Shown piece after piece: positions 12,368 to 49,998 of a stretch of 64,000 nucleotides of DNA; position 1 is the first letter of the stretch; each line of letters starts with the position of its first letter. The translations under genes were made by a program, and so were the position numbers. The notes beneath the pieces were generated by a model that worked only from the letters and a program-made list of their open reading frames with translations, searched no databases and was not told the origin of the DNA. Source of the DNA: Nitrospiraceae bacterium (GTDB lineage Bacteria > Nitrospirota > Nitrospiria > Nitrospirales > Nitrospiraceae); assembly GCA_019637075.1 (NCBI GenBank), contig JAHBWI010000008.1:1-64000 (forward strand). Direction: 5' to 3'.

Positions 12368-13147
12368 TCACCCCGGCAGCGTCTGGTACCAGCCATTCGC
12401 TTGGGCCAGATGCACCGGGGTATCGAACAGTGCCGTCAGTCTTTCCGCAGTCAGGATTTGCTCCTTCGCTCCGTCCGCCCTCACGGCTCCACGCTTCAGC
12501 AATACGACACGACTCATCTCGGGCGGAATCTCATGGATATGGTGGGTGACCAACAAGATCGTTTTCCCCTTCGACATGAGCCGGCGAATCGTCGAGAGAT
12601 AATGGAAACAGGCATGGAGGTCGAGCCCGCTGGTGGGCTCGTCAAGCACCAACACCTCCGGATCATGCACAAGCGCCCTGCCGAGCAGGAATCGACGCTG
12701 CTCGCCCGTGGACATTTCGCCGAACGCGCGGTCCTGCAGATGGCCGATCTCCAGTTCCTCCATCACTTCCATTCCACGCACGAGTTGCCCATATCCGAAT
12801 TCTTGATGCTGGTATGTATCGACACTGGCGAAATACCCCGAGAGGATCACGTTAATGCCGCGGGCTCCGTCGAGGTAGCGGTGCTGAAGATCGTGGGATA
12901 CCAGACCGAGGCGCTTGCGCAAATCCCAGACGTTCCACCGTTGCTCGCCGAACAGCCGCACCACGGTCTCCTCCCGTGGTGTCGGATGCAACTCCATCGA
13001 GAGCAGTTTCAGCAATGTGGATTTTCCTGCCCCGTTGGGACCAAGAATGGCCGTATGCACACCTTCATCGATACTGAGCGAAAAGTCGGTCAAGACCTCG
13101 CGATCGCCGCGATAGACGGTGGCATGTTGAACATCGAGGATCCTCAC
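12368..13147 (-). CDS. ABC transporter ATP-binding protein (ModF/YlmA-like)
   Basis: 259 residues. Walker A GPNGAGKST (about 36-44), signature MSTGEQRR, Walker B VLVLDEPT and H-loop VTHHIHE are all present. There is no permease gene nearby. Single-domain ATPases of this kind (YlmA/ModF-like) are often orphan. Its ATG overlaps the stop of the upstream lipoprotein gene by 4 bases (13144-13147), so the two are translationally coupled. Confidence 0.88.
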   Translation of the reverse strand: MRILDVQHATVYRGDREVLTDFSLSIDEGVHTAILGPNGAGKSTLLKLLSMELHPTPREETVVRLFGEQRWNVWDLRKRLGLVSHDLQHRYLDGARGINVILSGYFASVDTYQHQEFGYGQLVRGMEVMEELEIGHLQDRAFGEMSTGEQRRFLLGRALVHDPEVLVLDEPTSGLDLHACFHYLSTIRRLMSKGKTILLVTHHIHEIPPEMSRVVLLKRGAVRADGAKEQILTAERLTALFDTPVHLAQANGWYQTLPG

Positions 13148-41271: not shown

Positions 41272-41511
41272 TCACAAACCGGCCATATTTTCCCGAACTG
41301 TTTTCGTCACCTTGGCAAGAATGCTCGCATCCTCCGTCAGATCGATAATATCGTCTTCCGGAATGGTAATGAACTTGCGGTTCTTCCCCTTCGTCAGCGA
41401 GATCAGAAACATGCTGTTCGTCGGCTTAGTCGGGATAACAACCTCGACGGCTGCATCAAGCCCCTCCACCACTTCGACAAACCGCTGCTTACCTTCAGCC
41501 CACTCGTCCAT
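41272..41511 (-). CDS. small hypothetical protein
   Basis: 79 residues from the ATG at 41511 (TAGGAGCAG upstream). Alternating strand and helix character (FVEVVEGLDAAVEVVIPTK, NRKFITIPEDDIIDL). No signal peptide or motif known. It is 14 bases downstream of the thioredoxin-like gene. Confidence 0.6.
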   Translation of the reverse strand: MDEWAEGKQRFVEVVEGLDAAVEVVIPTKPTNSMFLISLTKGKNRKFITIPEDDIIDLTEDASILAKVTKTVRENMAGL

Positions 41512-41525
41512 AGCGATTCCTGCTC

Positions 41526-42053
41526 CTACATTCCGCTCACAGCCAGTAACTTTTCGACTTCCTGTATGATGACATCCGCGCCGGCCAGTTCCATATTCCC
41601 CACCCGCTGCCAACGGATCACGCCTTTCTGATCGATCACGTATACATTGGGGATGAACTTTCCCCCACCATAGAGCTTGTCAGTGGTCTTCGATGGATCG
41701 AGCAGGTAGGGATACGTCACCTTCACTGGAAACGCACTCAAAAATTCGCCCACGTCACGCTTGGGGTTTCCGGATGAGTTTACCCCAATCACGGCTACAT
41801 TTTTCCCAGCCATGGCCTCGTGAACTTTTTGCAAATTTGTCCCCTGCACCATACAGGGATCGCAGATATGGAATAGGCCAAGCACAATGACCTTGCCTTT
41901 CAGGTTATCCAATGCAACGGATTCACCTGTCATTGATGCCAAAGTAAAGGCCGGTGCAGACTCGCCCACCTTGAAGAATCCTGCCGCCAACAGGTTATCT
42001 GCGCTCCAGATTGAGGCGATAAACAACCCCAGGATGATCAGCGATCGCTTCAT
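41526..42053 (-). CDS. exported TlpA/ResA-like thioredoxin-fold protein
   Basis: 175 residues. Signal peptide (LLAAGFF at its end), then a redoxin domain beginning VGESAPAFTLASMTGE, with a CxxC active site in FHICDPCMVQ and the cis-Pro region KFIPNVYVID. It is expected to reduce or isomerise periplasmic disulfides, or support cytochrome maturation. A 176-base gap separates it from the upstream nucleotidyltransferase, so co-transcription with the RiPP-like genes is uncertain. Confidence 0.85.
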   Translation of the reverse strand: MKRSLIILGLFIASIWSADNLLAAGFFKVGESAPAFTLASMTGESVALDNLKGKVIVLGLFHICDPCMVQGTNLQKVHEAMAGKNVAVIGVNSSGNPKRDVGEFLSAFPVKVTYPYLLDPSKTTDKLYGGGKFIPNVYVIDQKGVIRWQRVGNMELAGADVIIQEVEKLLAVSGM

Positions 42054-42229
42054 GGATACCTCCTTCTGCGGGATTTTCCCCCTTCGTACGACCCATCACG
42101 CGCCGTAAGACCGGCCCGTCGCCATACGCGAGGGTATCCTAGCACGCGTTTTTTTTCGGGAGCAAGGATGACAACACGAGGGAGGCAGAAGCATTGACAG
42201 ACCGACGGCGGGGGAGAGCAGACGGAGCT

Positions 42230-43525
42230 TTATCCAGGACTGTGTAGCCAACGCGCCATAGCTCGACGCAGGCGGGCGATCGGCAAGCATCGCACGACCA
42301 ACCGTTGAATCGGCTTCACAATTCGATACAGCACCCGCAATGAGGACTGTCCTCGAAACCACGCTCTGTCCCCCTGTACCACCAGTGAATCAACCCGACA
42401 GAGGGATAGCCCGAACTTCCACCGCTCAAGTGTCGAGTCTTTCAACATATAGTACAGGGCTTCCGCCTGCTCCTCGTCCACACCCTGCTCTGGACGCTTG
42501 AGCAATTGCTTGGGCATGTAACGAATCACCGTGGAGAAATCGGTATCTGAATCGATTTCCATCGCGACGATTTTAGGCAAACCGATTTCGAAAAGATTCC
42601 GAGCCAGCGCCAGTCCCAGCAACACCATTCGACGGCAGCCCCACTCATCGGCCTGAAACAGAACGCGACTCCAATCCAGCGTCTTTCGGCGCTGAACCAG
42701 CTCCGCCACGTCGCACACCCATTTCAGTTGTTCCCACCCGTGCTTCGAACCGTGCACGCAGAGCAGAATCAGGAGATCCTCCGGACACAACCCCATTACC
42801 GGTCGTGTGGGAAGATGCACCGGCTTCAGGCGGGTCCAGAACACGCCGCGATCCAGCCGAAATGCAAAATGCTGCCGGGCCATCAGCCATTGGAGATCGA
42901 CAGCAACAATACCGTTTTTTTTCTGAAAAAAATTGTACGGTTCGTCAGATTCGCTGGCATGCTCATTTCGGCTGGACAATTGATACCCCTGCGCCCACAG
43001 TGCTTGCCTAGCCTGTGGAATGGACGACTGATCAACAATCAGGTCAAGGTCGGCGCACTCCCGCAAGCTCAGATCTCCATAGGCCGCTTGTGCTAAACTG
43101 ACCCCTTTGAACGGAATAGCGCGCACACCTCTCGCCGCCAGTGCATCCAGCACCGCGACTAGCTCCTTCGCCAACAATGTATTCAACAGGGTGTTGGCTT
43201 GAATGTGCCTCCGCAATGCTTCATGCGTTTCCTTTGCGATTACGCCGGGGCAAATGCTCGCCAAATTCCGATAGACCAATGGGATGACACCGTGGGCCCG
43301 CGCCAGTCGCCACACCAATTCCCAATCCAGCGGCTCGGTCACCAGATCAGCCACCTCGACTCGCACAAATTCCGTGACAGTCGTTCTGGCGCATAACACC
43401 AGCAAACGCCCCTCACGAGACAGATGTGACAGTCCGGTCGCAGGAGCGATTGCACCGACAGTCAGTCTGACTCCAGGACGCTGTCGTTTCCAGAGATTGA
43501 TCAAAGACACATCTTCCCGTCTCAT
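42230..43525 (-). CDS. nucleotidyltransferase-family protein (RiPP-locus type)
   Basis: 431 residues from the ATG at 43525, which overlaps the kinase stop by 4 bases; the open frame extends further but is antisense-like. The central domain matches the NTP_transf_5 group: AIPFKGVSLAQAAYGDLSLRECADLDLIVD, where D-L-D is the metal-binding pair, and CPEDLLILLCVHGSKHGWEQLKWVCDVAEL. Members of this family occur in lasso-peptide clusters next to HprK-like kinases (for example the paeninodin type). Its exact reaction is not established; nucleotidylation of peptide or protein is a guess. Confidence 0.82.
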   Translation of the reverse strand: MRREDVSLINLWKRQRPGVRLTVGAIAPATGLSHLSREGRLLVLCARTTVTEFVRVEVADLVTEPLDWELVWRLARAHGVIPLVYRNLASICPGVIAKETHEALRRHIQANTLLNTLLAKELVAVLDALAARGVRAIPFKGVSLAQAAYGDLSLRECADLDLIVDQSSIPQARQALWAQGYQLSSRNEHASESDEPYNFFQKKNGIVAVDLQWLMARQHFAFRLDRGVFWTRLKPVHLPTRPVMGLCPEDLLILLCVHGSKHGWEQLKWVCDVAELVQRRKTLDWSRVLFQADEWGCRRMVLLGLALARNLFEIGLPKIVAMEIDSDTDFSTVIRYMPKQLLKRPEQGVDEEQAEALYYMLKDSTLERWKFGLSLCRVDSLVVQGDRAWFRGQSSLRVLYRIVKPIQRLVVRCLPIARLRRAMARWLHSPG

Positions 43526-44574
43526 GCTGATGCTCCGGACGAATTCGTGTGGACCTGTAAAAGAGGCGTCACCAATTGAGGCAACTCCAGCACATCCCTG
43601 CCAAAATACAGGCGGTAGCAATCTGTCATCGCAACCAAGCGACTTAAGGCGTGGAACTCCGTCTTCGCCACCACCGGATCAAATACCAACAGAGAATGGG
43701 GAAGAATGAGCTCAAGTGCCTGTTTTTTTGACAATGGCTCAAGACAACTGTATGGAGCATCGATGACTTGAGGGAATAGGATGAGCCGCGGCACACAAGG
43801 CCGACCCAGAGGCCAAGGGTAAAGTTCTTCAGCGTAAAAGTACCGCTTGGGGATACCGGGACGCAGGATCGACTGCGGCGCCTCGCGCAGTTCCGGAAAG
43901 AATTCCACTGTCCGGTCCGTGACATTGACCTTCAAGGGATAGGGCAATAGTTCGACCCCCTGTTCGGTCATTCGAAAGAAAGGATGATCGTCGGACAGGT
44001 AGCGATAGCCGGAACGCAACAGTGAGAGAAACGCGGTCGTCTTGCCCCTCCCGCTAAACCCCGGGATCAACACCCCTTTCCCATCTTTTTCCAAGGCGGT
44101 TGCGTGAAAGGTAAACAACCCACACCGCTTGGCCAGTTCGACGATCACGAAATGCACAAAACTCGCTCGAACGTCCAGGGACATTCTCTCCGGCCGAACG
44201 ATCCATCCCTTGGCGGATCTGCTGCTCCCATCGATCACGATGAGGCCTTCGCCATGAAAATCGGCTATCAGCATGCCTCCATCGGCAAAGATGTCGCATT
44301 GCCAAGTCGTGGTGCCGACATCCCCCTTCGGGATACCGCTTCCTTGATACAGCCGCTTCGCTGTATCGGGAATCTGAACGGGGACCTGTTCGCGGTGATC
44401 CACAGCCGTCAAACCGACCTCCAGCAGTACTCCCTGATGGGACGCCCGACACTCGAAATAACCTAGGAGCTGGGAGGTTGCCTCAACAAGAACACATGAA
44501 TCTGTGCGCAAGCGAATATTCACCCCGTGGATCGAGAGAAACACCTGATGTTCTGCATGTGTGACAAGCATCAT
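43522..44574 (-). CDS. HprK-related serine kinase (HPr-rel-A/lasso type)
   Basis: 350 residues; GGGAGA precedes the ATG. The C-terminal half has an HPr-kinase P-loop GFSGRGKT (172-179, Lys178), the preceding FTFHATAL typical of this family, and YLSDDHPFF after it. The first 150 residues have the N-terminal domain of HprK-related kinases rather than of true HprK. There is no ptsH nearby. In paeninodin-type lasso pathways a homologue phosphorylates a serine of the precursor. Here both precursors downstream of B1 carry one invariant serine (residue 29). Confidence 0.87.
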   Translation of the reverse strand: MMLVTHAEHQVFLSIHGVNIRLRTDSCVLVEATSQLLGYFECRASHQGVLLEVGLTAVDHREQVPVQIPDTAKRLYQGSGIPKGDVGTTTWQCDIFADGGMLIADFHGEGLIVIDGSSRSAKGWIVRPERMSLDVRASFVHFVIVELAKRCGLFTFHATALEKDGKGVLIPGFSGRGKTTAFLSLLRSGYRYLSDDHPFFRMTEQGVELLPYPLKVNVTDRTVEFFPELREAPQSILRPGIPKRYFYAEELYPWPLGRPCVPRLILFPQVIDAPYSCLEPLSKKQALELILPHSLLVFDPVVAKTEFHALSRLVAMTDCYRLYFGRDVLELPQLVTPLLQVHTNSSGASA

Positions 44575-44670
44575 TGCTCTCCCTGTTGCACGATATCCGA
44601 AGCTCAGCGATCCAAAATCCTCAGGGTTGGCCAGCCTGTTCAGCTGGCCAACCCCATCAATGCACCAGGC

Positions 44671-44781
44671 TTATTTTAGATCCTGACACACACGAGACAG
44701 CACGATCGCCGTCACATCACGCAACAACTCATGCTTCACAAGGGCCGGCTTCACATATGCAACTTTCTTCTGCTGTTCCAT
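44671..44781 (-). CDS. RiPP precursor peptide 2, lasso-like leader
   Basis: 36 residues, too short for ordinary gene calls. AAAGGAGAGCATC ribosome-binding site before ATG at 44781; stop TAA at 44671. It begins MEQQKKVA, then YVKPALVKHELLRDVTA (residues 9-25), then IVLSRVCQDLK. Tyr9, Pro12, Leu14 and Thr24 match the spacing of the lasso leader motif Y-x2-P-x-L-x9-T. It is 26/36 identical to the next peptide. The difference is concentrated after residue 25, as expected for leader/core. No Gly/Ser/Cys sits at the predicted core position 1. Confidence 0.82.
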   Translation of the reverse strand: MEQQKKVAYVKPALVKHELLRDVTAIVLSRVCQDLK

Positions 44782-44868
44782 GATGCTCTCCTTTCAGCTC
44801 CCCAGGAGCATGAACGGGGCGAACGAGCAGGATCGATCGCCCATGATTGTTCTGCGACAGGCCCCCTA

Positions 44869-44979
44869 CTAGTTTTCGCCACGGACGATGCGGGACACGA
44901 CCAAGGCCGTCACGTCACGCAGCAACTCATGCTTCACGAGCGCTGGCTTCACGTACGCCTGCTTCTGCTGCTGTTCCAT
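44869..44979 (-). CDS. RiPP precursor peptide 1, lasso-like leader
   Basis: 36 residues. Very strong ribosome-binding site (AAAGGAGGTGAGG) before ATG at 44979; stop TAG at 44869. The gene starts 6 bases after the PqqD-like gene ends. Sequence: MEQQQKQA, YVKPALVKHELLRDVTA, then LVVSRIVRGEN. Leader positions Tyr9, Pro12, Leu14, Thr24 fit the lasso-type recognition motif, with Glu replacing the usual Gly at position 18. Ser29 and Arg30 are shared with the paralogue. The predicted core is 11 residues or fewer. Confidence 0.85.
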   Translation of the reverse strand: MEQQQKQAYVKPALVKHELLRDVTALVVSRIVRGEN

Positions 44980-44985
44980 TCGTCC

Positions 44986-45303
44986 TCACCTCCTTTCAGT
45001 TTGAATAAGCCCCTCTTGCGTCAAGGCGGATATGAGCTCTATCAAATCACGCGTGGCCTGCTCCCCTGTCACTTCGAACCTGGCACACACTAATGACAAC
45101 AAATCCTGAATTGATCGATCACCGGCGCAGTGATCCCAGATCAGAGCACCGACGGGATTCAACGTGTAATATCGTCCCGTGCTCAAATTGAGGAGCACGG
45201 CTTCACCGTCCATGTTGGTCCCATGCACATCTTCGTTCCTTTTCGGGAATACCGTTGCGAGCTCGCAAGACTGGCGGCCAAGAATTTCAGCCGGCATAGG
45301 CAT
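44986..45303 (-). CDS. PqqD-like leader-binding protein (lasso B1 type)
   Basis: 105 residues from the ATG at 45303, which has GAGGAGG seven bases upstream. The sequence is a typical RiPP recognition element of the PqqD family: GEAVLLNLSTGRYYTLNPVGALIWDHCAGDRSIQDLL, where the winged helix binds the leader peptide. Its product would present the two 36-residue precursors, encoded immediately downstream, to the peptidase and kinase. It is a free-standing domain, as in clusters where B1 and B2 are separate genes. Confidence 0.9.
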   Translation of the reverse strand: MPMPAEILGRQSCELATVFPKRNEDVHGTNMDGEAVLLNLSTGRYYTLNPVGALIWDHCAGDRSIQDLLSLVCARFEVTGEQATRDLIELISALTQEGLIQTERR

Positions 45304-45774
45304 CGACAACCTCCTCAGTCAAAAAATGAACGGCAACGCAGATGATCGACATGCGACATGGCGTACAACACAGTTCAAGGAGTGAAGAGTAGCGGTGAGA
45401 CTGGACGGCCCACGCAAATCGCATCGCATCATTAAGAATCGAGTGACTCGGCCCAACGAGAGCGGCCTTGGATCAACCTGTCAAATGCACCGACCGTGAA
45501 TGTGATGACTGCCCATGCGCCGAGGCCCACAATACCGGGCTCTTTATGTGGCAACCATTACCACTGCGACTGGTCCGAACCATCTTTTTGGGGGGGATGT
45601 CCTACGCCCACACCGACGCCGTACGGACAGATTAGCAGGCGGCCTGATGCACTCTACCTCCTCAAATCAACTGCAGGATGTTCGAGGGAACCGGTGACAC
45701 GCTGTTGTTCAGAATTGCACGCAGATAGAGCGATTGTTCCCAAACAACCGTCCCGCCGAGTGGAAGAAGAAACC
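45304..45774. other. 471-base region between B2 and B1
   Basis: No complete gene with a good start is visible on either strand. It probably holds the promoter for B1 and the precursors. It also holds a possible broken short peptide gene at 45558-45652, listed separately. Confidence 0.5.
45558..45652 (-). pseudogene. possible frameshifted short peptide gene
   Basis: A perfect GAGGAGG (45663-45657) stands 4 bases before a GTG at 45652, but the frame stops after six codons (VHQAAC). A single -1 shift leads into a 24-codon frame, LL-ICPYGVGVGVGHPPQKDG... SQW, ending at TAA 45558. The Gly-Val run and the strong ribosome-binding site beside RiPP genes make a decayed or sequencing-error precursor possible. 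It may equally be chance. Confidence 0.25.
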
Positions 45775-46218
45775 CTACCGGATGTCGGTCTTCACAACCT
45801 GAGAATGGGCGGAGGGGGAAGGAAAACACACGGTTACGGCAAAAGAGCGCCAGTATGGTGAAGGCTCGAGAAACTCTTTGTCCTCGAGCATCAACCATGC
45901 ATGGCCCTCGAGTTTGCCGTTCAATCTGGCTACCCCACATCGGAACTGTGCAGGGAAGCCGAACTTTCGAGCGAACCAGAGGAGCGTCAGAGAGCGAGGG
46001 AAGCAGTTGCCTTTGAGATTGTATGGAAACCGATCCAGCCAGCGATCGGTATAGTACGCAGCGTCATCCATTCCTACATGATCCTGAGTGGACGCCACCG
46101 GTCCGCTGGCCAACCATCCTAATAATCGTGGCAGGCTCACCACACGCAAGGCGAGACGGATAGCTAGGATAACTAGGCCTGTTTGTGTAACGAGGCGGTA
46201 TTTGCGAATGAGCCGCAT
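45775..46218 (-). CDS. lasso-type B2 leader peptidase (transglutaminase-like Cys protease)
   Basis: 147 residues. After a hydrophobic N-terminus (about 13-37) the protein matches the B2/transglutaminase-like core: Cys72 in GNCFPRSLTLLWFARKFGFP and His106 in LEGHAWLMLED, with an acidic residue following, as in the Cys-His-Asp triad that cuts lasso leaders after the conserved Thr-x. It is transcribed upstream of B1 and the precursors, with 471 bases between. The C-terminus ends where the family normally ends. Confidence 0.87.
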   Translation of the reverse strand: MRLIRKYRLVTQTGLVILAIRLALRVVSLPRLLGWLASGPVASTQDHVGMDDAAYYTDRWLDRFPYNLKGNCFPRSLTLLWFARKFGFPAQFRCGVARLNGKLEGHAWLMLEDKEFLEPSPYWRSFAVTVCFPSPSAHSQVVKTDIR

Positions 46219-46301
46219 ACCGCTCAGTGTAGCAATCGGGACAGAGAAGTCCAGACGATCCTAGGTTCAGACCGCTGATGCAGGGGGATACGAAGGGTGC
46301 A

Positions 46302-47732
46302 CTAGCGTGACGGTTCGAAAAGCCCCAACTGGCGCTCTTCGGCGCGGGTGAACGAGATGGGATATCGCTCGGTAAAGCAGGCGTTGCAGTACTGTTCCGG
46401 GGCACCGGGAGCTGACTTCAGCATTCCGTCGAGACTCAGATAGGCCAGGCTATCGGCCGTGATGTATTTGCGGATTTCCTGCGCCGTGTGGCTGGAAGCA
46501 ATCAATTCCTTCTTGTTCGGCGTGTCGATACCATAGAAACAGGGTGAGACGATCGGCGGTGAACTGATCCGCATGTGGACTTCCTTCGCCCCTGCGTGCC
46601 GAAGCATTTTCACGATCTTCCTGCTGGTCGTGCCGCGGACCAACGAATCGTCTACCACAACCACCCGTTTGCCTCGAAGGACCTCCGGCACCGCGTTCAA
46701 CTTCACTTTCACACCGAAGTGACGAATGGACTGTTCCGGTTCAATGAATGTGCGGCCCACGTAATGATTCCGGATCAGGCCCGTTTCGAAGGGGATTCCA
46801 GACCCCTCTGAGAACCCCAAGGCCGCCGGAACCCCTGAATCAGGAACGGGAATCACGATGTCCGCCTCGACCCATGACTCCTGAGCCAGTTGCCGCCCTA
46901 GAGCCTTCCGAATGGCATACACCGCGCTGCCGCCGAAAATCCTGCTGTCTGGTCTGGCAAAGTAGACGTATTCAAATACGCACATGGCAGGGTCCGTCGG
47001 CGGGAACGGCCGGTAGCTGGTGATCCCAGCATGATCCAGGACCACCAGCTCTCCCGGGTCGATCTCCCGCACATACTCCGCATCAAGCAAATCAAACGCG
47101 CAGCTCTCGGAGGCCACCAGCCAAGAATCTCGCAACCGGCCCAGGCACAGGGGCCGGAGGCCATGGGGATCCCGAGCTGCGACGAGACCCTGATCGGTCA
47201 TGAGGACGATGGAAAAGGCACCGCGCACCTGACTGAGGGAATCGATGACGCGGTCCAGCAGCGTATCTGCGCGCGAATGGGCAATGAGGTGGATGATGAC
47301 TTCCGTGTCCGAGGTCGACTGAAAGATCGCTCCGTAGGCTTCCAACTCGCTGCGGAGCATCGTCGCATTGATGAGATTGCCATTGTGGGCCACCGCCAAA
47401 TTTCCGAAGGCAAAATTCACCGTCAGCGGTTGCACGTTCTTAAGCCCCGCGCCTCCCGCGGTGGAATATCGGTTATGGCCGATCGCCATATGTCCGGGCA
47501 ATCGGGCCAATTCACGCTGCGAAAAAATGTCGGCGACCAGCCCCTGGCCCTTCTCGATATAGAACTGCTCACCGTCATTCGACACGATACCCGACGCCTC
47601 CTGCCCACGATGCTGCAGGGCATAAAGGCCGAGGTAGGCGAGATTCGCCGCTTCCTTGTGGCCGTAGATGCCGAACACGGCACACTCGTCGTGAAACTTG
47701 TCGGGCTGGTATATGGGTAATTCGTTCGGCAT
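46302..47732 (-). CDS. purF: amidophosphoribosyltransferase
   Basis: 476 residues from the ATG at 47732 (MPNELP...). This start leaves a 15-residue propeptide before the catalytic Cys ([11 protein letters not shown]), as in Bacillus-type PurF. The Ntn amidotransferase domain ([11 protein letters not shown]) is followed by the phosphoribosyltransferase domain with [13 protein letters not shown]. First committed step of purine synthesis; last gene of the purSQLF order. The frame is open upstream into purL, but those residues are not family-like. Confidence 0.95.
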
Positions 47733-47745
47733 GATCAGTCGGGTT

Positions 47746-49998
47746 TCAGTCCTGGCTGAGGGCACGGGGGATCGCTCCGGCCCATCGGTCATATACGGTG
47801 TCGAGGTCAAGATCGAGTGTGCACCCTGGCGTCCGCCGATCGCCATCGACGGTAACGGTCAAACGAGCTCCTCCCACGGTTCCAATTCGAGCGGCGGAGA
47901 CCCCGGCGTCCCAAGCCGCGTTAAGCACGCGATCGGCATGCTCCGGTCGCACAGACAGCAGAATCCGTGATTGGCTTTCCCCAAATAGCAGCGCGTCCCG
48001 GCGCAACCCATCAAGCGGCAATTGTATCACAGCACCGAGCCTTTCTCCTGGACCGGAGATGCAGCTCTCGGCGAGCGCGACCGCGAGGCCCCCGTCCGAA
48101 CAATCGTGTGCGGACTGCACGAGTCCCTGACGTATCAGATTCAACGCGCAGGCTTGTACGGCCCGCTCTGACTCGAGGCTCAACAACGGAGGAGAGCCCT
48201 GTTCCCGGTGATGCAGCACGCGCAGATACTCTGTCCCCCCCAAATCCTCACGCGTCTTGCCCAAGAGAATGATCGCGTGACCGCTCGCTTTGAACCACTG
48301 GGTCACGGCCTGATCGGCCCGATCAATCAGCCCAACCATCCCGATCATCGGCGTCGGGTAAATGGAGAGGTCGTTCGTTTCGTTGTAAAAGCTGACGTTG
48401 CCGCTGACGATCGGTACGCTCAACGCCTCGCAGGCATCCTTCAGCCCCTCAATGGCCATGACGAATTGCCACATGATGTCCGGGCGCTGTGGGTTCCCGA
48501 AATTGAGACAGTCTGTTACGCCGATCGGCTGAGCCCCTGAACAGACCAAATTGCGCGCGCACTCGGCAATGGCAATCTTGGCGCCCTCATAAGGATTCAG
48601 CAAACAATAGCGCCCATTGCAGTCGACCGACACAGCCAGCGCCTTGTCCGTACCTTTCACACGCAACACGGCCGCATCCGAGCCAGGCCGAACGATCGTA
48701 TTCGTGCGCACCATATGGTCGTACTGTTCGTAGACCCAGCGTTTGCTCGCGATGGTCGGAGATTCCAACAGCGCCAGAAGCGCGGCATTCGGATCCTTCA
48801 CATCCGGCAGCGCGTCGTAATTCAGCGATTGCAGCATCTCCTGATAGGCCGGCGGGGCGCTCGGCCGATCGTATCGCGGTCCCTCGTCCGCCAGCGCCTT
48901 TGCCGGAATGTCGGCCACCACCGTGCCGCTATCCTTGACCACCACGTGCCCTGTGTCGGTCACCCGCCCGATGACCGCCGCATCAAGGTCCCATTTGCGG
49001 CAAATCGCCAGGACCGCATCTTCCTTACCAGCCTTCGCCACCATGAGCATCCGCTCCTGCGATTCGGAGAGCATGATCTCATAGGGCGTCATACCGGGTT
49101 CGCGCCGCGGCACCTCCGCCAATTCCAACTCCACGCCGGTCCCTTCGCGAGAGGCCATCTCACAAGCCGAGCTGGTCAGTCCGGCGGCGCCCATATCCTG
49201 AATGCCAACCAGCAAGTCCGTCGACATCAGTTCCAAGCAGGCTTCAAGCAACAGCTTTTCCGTGAATGGATCGCCGACCTGTACGGTGGGCCGCTTCTTT
49301 GCCGATTGCTCGTCGAACGAGTCCGACGCCATCGTGGCGCCGTGAATTCCATCGCGGCCGGTCTTCGAGCCGAAATAGATGACCGGGTTGCCGACGCCTG
49401 CCGCCTTACCACGAAAGATTCTGTCCTGCCTGGCGATTCCCAAACAAAACACGTTGACCAATGGGTTAAGCGCATAGATGTCGCTGAAGACGATCTCGCC
49501 GCCAACCGTCGGAACGCCCATACAGTTACCATAACCGGCAATTCCAGATACGACGCCTTTCAACAGTCGCCGATTCTGGGGATTGTCCAGCCCTCCGAAT
49601 CGGAGAGAATCCAGCAACGCGATCGGCCTGGCTCCCATCGTGAAAATGTCCCGAAGAATCCCACCGACGCCAGTCGCCGCCCCCTGATACGGTTCGATGA
49701 ACGAGGGGTGGTTGTGCGACTCCATTTTGAACACGGCACACAGACCATCGCCGATGTCCACCGCTCCGGCATTTTCCCCCGGTCCCTGCACCACGCGAGG
49801 CCCGGTCGTCGGCAGTTTCTTCAAGTGGATCCGTGAACTTTTGTAAGAGCAATGTTCCGACCACATCGCGGAAAACATGCCCAACTCGGTCCAGTTTGGA
49901 TCGCGTCCGAGGATGTGCAAAATCTTTTGGTACTCCTCCTCGCTCAGTTTGTGCTGGTCGAGGATCGCCTTGGTCACTACAAGCGGTTTCGTCGTCAT
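47746..49998 (-). CDS. purL: phosphoribosylformylglycinamidine synthase, large subunit
   Basis: 750 residues from the ATG at 49998 (AGAAGG upstream). This is the short PurL that works with PurS and PurQ. It has the AIRS-like duplicated fold: [13 protein letters not shown] near the start, [19 protein letters not shown], and [16 protein letters not shown], the ATP/Mg site. It makes FGAM from FGAR, ATP and glutamine-derived ammonia. Confidence 0.97.

Follow-up and report, generated by a model that had tools for sequence, protein, structure and literature searches.

Among the systems described so far, those closest to the gene cluster treated here are the linear polyphosphorylated peptides (LPPs), which are ribosomally synthesised and post-translationally modified peptides (RiPPs) stated to be restricted to Bacillota (Popov et al., Nat Commun 2026, PMC13381572). 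Their loci encode a discrete RiPP recognition element (RRE), an HprK-like kinase, an NTP transferase, an exporter and the SpI-like peptidase LppS, and contain no cyclase; the kinase adds several phosphates to Ser3 of the core, an S3A exchange abolishes this modification, leader removal requires the RRE, and a linear peptide was the product detected (PMC13381572). Kinases that tailor lasso peptides carry the HKDD catalytic motif; in paeninodin the phosphate acceptor is the C-terminal Ser, and in the pseudomycoidin system PsmN attaches a hexose to phospho-Ser (PMC9266682). Here we describe a locus on the minus strand of a 64,000-nucleotide stretch of DNA from a Nitrospiraceae bacterium (contig JAHBWI010000008.1; this whole stretch is called the window, and all coordinates refer to it), in which lasso-type leader-processing genes stand beside a kinase of this kind. 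We consider it likely, from the genes and their comparison with relatives, that this locus makes a linear phosphopeptide RiPP, with lasso-type handling of the leader, release by the peptidase B2 and no lasso closure.

Like the LPP loci, the window locus combines a discrete RRE with an HprK-like kinase and an NTP transferase and has no macrolactam cyclase. Both have precursors with a YxxP leader, a conserved N-terminal part, a variable C-terminal part and a conserved Ser near the start of the core, and the MsbA-like exporter of the LPPs is also found in many relatives of the window locus. The two differ in the peptidase (a B2 Cys-peptidase here, SpI-like LppS in LPPs), in genomic setting (a fixed chromosomal site in Nitrospirales, as compared to patchy, capsule-linked loci in Bacillota), in core length (8-13 residues in the genus group of the window as compared to 45) and in the position of the Ser, which is residue 4 of the core in this group; moreover, the lineage of the window has no exporter. 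No SpI (SipW/archaeal-type)-like peptidase was found at the locus, and the best match in the genome, which lies on another contig, reached 32 bits against the TIGR02228 cut-off of 51.85. Since B2 takes the place of LppS, a defining LPP feature is lacking and we do not file the Nitrospira locus as an LPP, although by analogy it may work like an LPP pathway. With the paeninodin-type (PadeK, ThcoK) and pseudomycoidin (PsmK/PsmN) clusters it shares B1, B2, an HprK-like kinase with the HKDD residues and the NTP transferase; it differs from them in lacking both cyclase and exporter, in a phosphate acceptor that is probably a core Ser near the N-terminus, and in a leader motif with Tyr instead of Trp. 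An earlier reading of this DNA, made from the sequence alone (the sequence-only reading), had linked the locus to the HPr-rel-A gene sets (TIGR04352/TIGR04353), which also pair an HprK-related kinase with a PqqD-like protein, and knew of no characterised product. Neither statement was borne out: the kinase scored 57.8 bits against a cut-off of 200 and B1 16.3 against 35, and the LPP family of Bacillota is a characterised counterpart (PMC13381572).

The genes are arranged in the order B2, B1, precursor P1, precursor P2, HprK-like kinase and NTP_transf_5 nucleotidyltransferase. This is the order and strand given by the sequence-only reading, and all six genes were located accordingly, together with the 4-base overlap (ATGA) that it had noted between the kinase and nucleotidyltransferase frames, the latter starting with the ATG at 43525. 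B2 (45775-46218, 147 aa), a lasso-type leader Cys-peptidase, scores above the cut-off of NF033537, lasso_biosyn_B2 (46.7 vs. 33 bits), matches PF13471 with 53 bits and is the only PF13471 protein that a profile search recovered from the genome. The residues Cys72 and His106, which the sequence-only reading had named for this peptidase, are retained in 47 of 47 aligned homologues, as is an acid at position 118 (Glu118 here). B1 (44986-45303) is a discrete PqqD-like RRE, as had been claimed: it exceeds the PF05402 cut-off with 70 bits and remains below the lasso-specific PqqD models (lasso_PqqD_Bac, 62 vs. 80). Translation probably begins at the ATG at 45303, preceded by AGGAGG, which gives a protein of 105 aa, the usual length among relatives, and not at the TTG at 45309 from the mechanical list of open reading frames (ORFs). 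The pair of B2 and discrete B1 RRE that is a feature of lasso clusters is present at the locus.

The two precursor genes, P1 (44869-44979) and P2 (44671-44781), encode 36 aa each and are both preceded by good Shine-Dalgarno sequences. P1 reads MEQQQKQAYVKPALVKHELLRDVT-A followed, after the proposed cleavage point, by LVVSRIVRGEN, and P2 reads MEQQKKVAYVKPALVKHELLRDVT-A followed by IVLSRVCQDLK; cleavage after Thr-Ala is proposed by analogy with the lasso rule, which places Thr at position -2. The leader, YVxPxLVKHELLRD[VI]T, is almost invariant in the alignment of precursors (A1). In the genus group, its ratio of nonsynonymous to synonymous substitution (dN/dS) is 0.04, with a proportion of synonymous differences (pS) of 0.58, while the core gave 0.18 over its first six residues and about 0.5 over the remainder. 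Between the leaders of P1 and P2, 55% of the synonymous sites differ and not a single amino acid has changed. The profile built on alignment A1 detects precursors in 62 of 175 genomes of the family and this, together with the leader dN/dS, indicates that the 36-residue frames are real and not due to chance, so that the two precursors proposed from the sequence alone were found conserved.

In the genus group, the core that follows Thr-Ala is 8-13 residues long and contains Ser4 and Arg5 in 25 of 25 cases, the Ser being encoded by TCC, TCT or TCG, while residues 2, 3 and 6 onward are variable; the first residue is Ile in 23 of these 25 cores. The conserved Ser at position 4 contrasts with the other precursors, in which position 3 is occupied by Ser (46) or Tyr (15) in 61 out of 61. 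An Asp or Glu at core positions 7-9 occurs in just 12 of the 25 genus-group cores (P1 has none, P2 has Asp9), and there is thus no fixed ring-closing acid. Judged by their length and composition, these cores cannot form a conserved lasso ring. The C-terminus of the core is also variable, P1 ending with Asn and P2 with Lys, and the C-terminal acceptor Ser of the paeninodin type is absent.

The kinase (43522-44574, 350 aa) is a relative of HprK that matches PF07475 and TIGR04352 and reaches none of the curated cut-offs. Structure comparison of its AlphaFold model (predicted local distance difference test, pLDDT, 89) gave matches to the catalytic domain of HprK/P (Z about 13, 145 residues aligned, 3.2 Å) and to phosphoenolpyruvate carboxykinase (Z 15). 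The HKDD set typical of paeninodin-type kinases is complete (His157, Lys178, Asp195 and Asp196), and it is intact in 54 out of 54 kinases from precursor-bearing loci. When the kinase occurs without a precursor, HKDD is broken in four of five loci, with H157Y and K178R in three genomes of one clade (G158, G159 and G160) and H157D in G048. Apart from these exchanges, the orphan kinases found at the purF site (L087, L088, L091 and L099, with H157Y/K178R or H157D) are conserved, and those with broken residues perhaps have a non-catalytic role. The nucleotidyltransferase (42230-43525, 431 aa) matches PF14907 with 223 bits and contains the active site G-x17-D-x-D. Its predicted structure (pLDDT 87) shows a minimal-nucleotidyltransferase core that resembles MenT1 (Z 14), ANT(2'')-Ia (Z 12.6), LnuA (Z 11) and, more weakly, FKRP (Z 8.4), an enzyme that transfers ribitol phosphate from a CDP-linked donor. 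Orphan nucleotidyltransferases of full length are present at the same site in L185-L189, with or without a divergent B1, and may have another role; in four genomes that kept this gene and lost the kinase (G022, G029, G031 and G040) the second active-site Asp is replaced by Glu. Taken together, the patterns of loss fit enzymes whose catalysis would be retained for the sake of the peptide.

In the pathway that we propose, P1 and P2 would be produced in excess over the enzymes, aided by a stem-loop after P2, and the B1 RRE would bind the YxxPxL leader, as this motif suggests and as shown in lasso and LPP systems. The HprK-like kinase would then phosphorylate, or polyphosphorylate, the conserved core Ser (residue 4 in the genus group, residue 3 in most relatives), and the NTP_transf_5 protein, to judge from PsmN and from its fold, may cap or extend the phospho-Ser with a nucleotide or with a phosphosugar or hexose. 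Finally, B2 would cut after Thr-Ala and release a peptide of about 11 residues, which would stay linear because the genome has no cyclase. A linear peptide modified by kinase and nucleotidyltransferase and released by B2 had already been suggested by the sequence-only reading, and it is the product favoured by the comparative evidence. Of the two outcomes that this reading had named as refuting it, a lasso cyclase elsewhere in the genome and a lack of conservation of the 36-residue frames, neither was observed.

The association of precursor and kinase is strict. The kinase was found in 81 of the 175 family genomes, a few being distant matches, and in all 62 of those with precursors. Outside Nitrospiraceae, a draw of 396 genomes from the whole phylum yielded precursors in two genomes only, both from a sister family within the order. 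We compared 60 gene neighbourhoods. Genus g13, to which Candidatus Nitrospira defluvii belongs (FP929003; locus L202, precursor MERQIKPEYVKPALVKHELLRDVTAIQLSRVLDRTPA), shows the order purL-purF-B2-B1-P(1 or 2)-kinase-NTase-TSA-MBL-TPR as in the window, where NTase denotes the nucleotidyltransferase; purF-B2-B1-P-kinase-NTase, with no cyclase, is the order in the nearest genus, and the window-type gene set is retained in about 20 genomes of the neighbouring genus. Several stages of loss were observed at the same site: in G038 the entire cluster is pseudogenised, with B2, B1 and kinase decayed jointly and the precursor truncated; G036 has a broken B2 and an intact nucleotidyltransferase; G022, G031 and G040 keep B1 and the nucleotidyltransferase; G029 and G043 keep the nucleotidyltransferase alone and G131 B2 alone; and in G008, G013 and G054 the site between purF and the TSA gene is empty.

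The most obvious alternative, given that leader, B1 and B2 are all of lasso type, is a true lasso peptide whose cyclase is encoded elsewhere in the genome. Claims of genome-wide absence are based here on profile searches in a genome (G000) rated 100% complete. As the sequence-only reading had stated for the window, no PF00733 match was found on its contig, and neither the locus nor the rest of the genome contains a lasso cyclase above the NF033535 cut-off (best score 347 vs. 525 bits). Seven full-length AsnB-like proteins are present, and all of them begin with the catalytic Cys of a class II glutaminase (MCGI/MCAI) and score higher as asparagine synthase or exopolysaccharide amidotransferase than with NF033535. 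Over the 175 family genomes the NF033535 scores fall roughly into two groups: about 20 genomes reach 360-508 bits per piece, and ordinary AsnB proteins stay at or below about 325. Among the 62 genomes with precursors, six are high scorers and thus own a lasso-C-like gene, which speaks for this alternative, but a comparison of the two lists showed that it is never on the contig of the precursor, and the other 56 have no score of at least 380 bits. Considering also that the cores are too short and have no fixed ring-closing acid and that the sister-family loci are likewise free of cyclase, this explanation is largely refuted and keeps only a very slight probability. Three further candidates were examined and discarded. 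The matches of about 476 aa labelled "ASN" beside B2 in relatives proved to be PurF, a protein with the same glutaminase domain that lies in the conserved purL-purF flank; the AsnB that L090 encodes 4.4 kb away from its kinase belongs to the amidotransferases of XrtA/PEP-CTERM type (TIGR03108, 625 bits); and the true lasso loci of the family, L097 (G054) and L098 (G171), do have cyclases but only distantly similar kinases, with 25% identity to that of the window in L097 and recovery at E 2e-4 in L098.

Cross-linking of the peptide by a ligase encoded off the locus is suggested by the two tandem MvdD/GRASP-like ATP-grasp genes in clusters of g4, g14, parts of g15 and g17 and the sister family; we consider it quite improbable, since the window genome has no homologue of this ATP-grasp enzyme at E 1e-10 and the precursors that accompany the ATP-grasp units differ in their core, which is rich in Lys and Glu (QKYKEKTSDK...). 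Nor is the locus likely to be the decaying, no longer productive remnant of a larger cluster, a very doubtful reading in spite of the exporter and ATP-grasp genes missing here and of the real decay that several nearest-genus genomes show: in the window every catalytic residue is intact, the leader and the N-terminal part of the core show the low dN/dS reported above, the P1 and P2 leaders differ at synonymous sites only, and the neighbouring genus has kept the gene set. A further possibility is that kinase and nucleotidyltransferase act on another cellular target, with the peptide serving as regulator or adaptor instead of as their substrate. The kinase-only and nucleotidyltransferase-only loci at the same site would agree with it, but the orphans have mostly lost catalytic residues, the kinases of precursor loci never, and precursor and kinase go together in 62 of 62 genomes, which makes this explanation unlikely. 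With regard to the linear phosphopeptide that we prefer, several observations weigh against it. The product is a prediction from the genes. The conserved Ser is residue 4 here and residue 3 in most relatives and in LPPs, which may reflect another register or another point of cleavage. LppA S3Y is not phosphorylated, yet 15 relatives carry Tyr at this position, and LppN had no detectable effect in a heterologous host (PMC13381572). One precursor-less kinase (G046) retains HKDD, and the survival of the nucleotidyltransferase alone in some genomes, with 55-66% identity, hints that this enzyme has a second role. Furthermore, the loci are related by descent, so the counts given above are not independent, and the patterns of loss represent few independent events.

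The sister-family loci being without cyclase too, the cyclase-free plan is probably old within the order. The fixed site, the vertical inheritance and the lack of an exporter in the lineage weakly suggest a resident role rather than that of a mobile bacteriocin. Only tentatively, and with more doubt than confidence, do we propose an ancient class of Nitrospirales phosphopeptide RiPPs of separate origin from LPPs, derived from lasso clusters, in which the cyclase would have been lost before the two families split. If so, a class of separate origin would have kept B2 and would yield a short, phosphate-linked, nucleotidyltransferase-capped peptide with a conserved cellular role, which might resemble that of a cofactor, signal or regulator given vertical inheritance and the missing exporter, while sister lineages would act on the same leader with ATP-grasp ligases and fatty-acid-hydroxylase-like enzymes. 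With this locus, RiPPs that rely on a kinase and have no cyclase would reach beyond Bacillota into the main nitrite-oxidising bacteria, where it is inherited at a fixed site, in the sequenced Candidatus Nitrospira defluvii too. It makes a precise prediction, phosphate on Ser4, and offers a simple gene set for release of a linear phosphopeptide by a lasso B2; the natural series from the full set (exporter, ATP-grasp, hydroxylases) to the empty site may inform on what the nucleotidyltransferase adds and what the peptide is for. Among the papers searched, none described a lasso-like or RiPP locus of this kind in Nitrospira.

Across the order, nearly all precursor genes are trailed by a stem-loop of 10-14 bp, mostly 2-40 nt past the stop codon, with arms close to GCTGGCC/GGCCAGC. 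In the window a stem-loop follows P2 only (44624-44654, minus strand, 12 bp), before the kinase gene, and is the top match of the genome to our stem-loop model R1 (E 2.8e-5). Among the hairpins that trail precursors, 78 of 85 were stronger than any of 20 mononucleotide shuffles, and 11 of 13 stem pairs show changes on both sides in an alignment of 31 sequences; because these hairpins had been selected for pairing, the paired changes support the homology of the stem-loop more than they test it. The element possibly serves in processing or attenuation and sets the ratio of precursor to enzymes. A consensus terminator was rejected, as there is no T-run, and so was a dispersed palindrome, as the copy at the locus is the best match in its own genome and the others are weak. 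Nothing in Rfam matched across 41500-46500, and a promoter/terminator scan gave results no better than shuffled sequence. Stem-loops trailing precursors were also observed at L040-L090.

The clusters of g14, of parts of g15 and g17, and of the sister family also contain an MsbA-like ABC exporter and two tandem ATP-grasp proteins; these larger relatives hold, in addition, one or two proteins of the fatty-acid-hydroxylase superfamily and sometimes another B1-P-kinase unit. In other-genus relatives the exporter and the two ATP-grasp genes occupy the position of the spacer between B2 and B1 (45304-45774, minus strand), as seen in the gene maps of L069, L072 and the sister-family locus L199. The spacer may be a deletion scar, and the window locus a reduced form of the larger cluster. 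No exporter was found at the locus itself, which therefore lacks this LPP feature, or as an orthologue in the genome (best identity about 30%). The sequence-only reading had denied any ABC exporter in the window, and this holds for membrane-ATPase exporters; there is, however, an ORF for an ABC ATPase subunit (about 12419-13105, minus strand), 30 kb from the locus and not a membrane-ATPase fusion. The tandem ATP-grasp proteins of the relatives recall the graspetides (MvdC/MvdD-type), but such proteins are absent from the window genome, the best scores of the relatives (TIGR04187 125 bits, MvdD 91 bits) are far below the family cut-offs, and leader and accessory set are of lasso type. The ATP-grasp units accompany cores of the Lys/Glu-rich or of the GTSGVKTSDK type. 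Loci with B1/B2, kinase, nucleotidyltransferase and two ATP-grasp proteins and without lasso cyclase include L060, L063-L069, L072, L077, L079 and L199; hydroxylase-like enzymes are frequent in these larger relatives, which possibly represent a further RiPP type.

On the upstream side the window locus is flanked by purF (46302-47846, minus strand), which stands outside the pathway and is the same neighbour in relatives, and on the downstream side by a gene for an AhpC/TSA protein of thioredoxin fold (41526-42053, minus strand; PF00578), which adjoins purF where the site is empty. A second cyclase-less set (L093-L096, in G060, G057, G117 and G115) consists of B2, precursor, HprK-like kinase, radical SAM protein, B1 and nucleotidyltransferase; its precursors contain ...FVRPVLTRHATLPAVTAAFFG... 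and its kinase is 26-28% identical to that of the window. In the sister family, G397 carries five precursor-like genes at separate places (L195-L198), some without a nearby biosynthetic gene. Finally, a kinase with 39% identity (L163, PQAQ01000198.1) lies on a contig labelled Methylomirabilota, either by transfer or by mis-binning.

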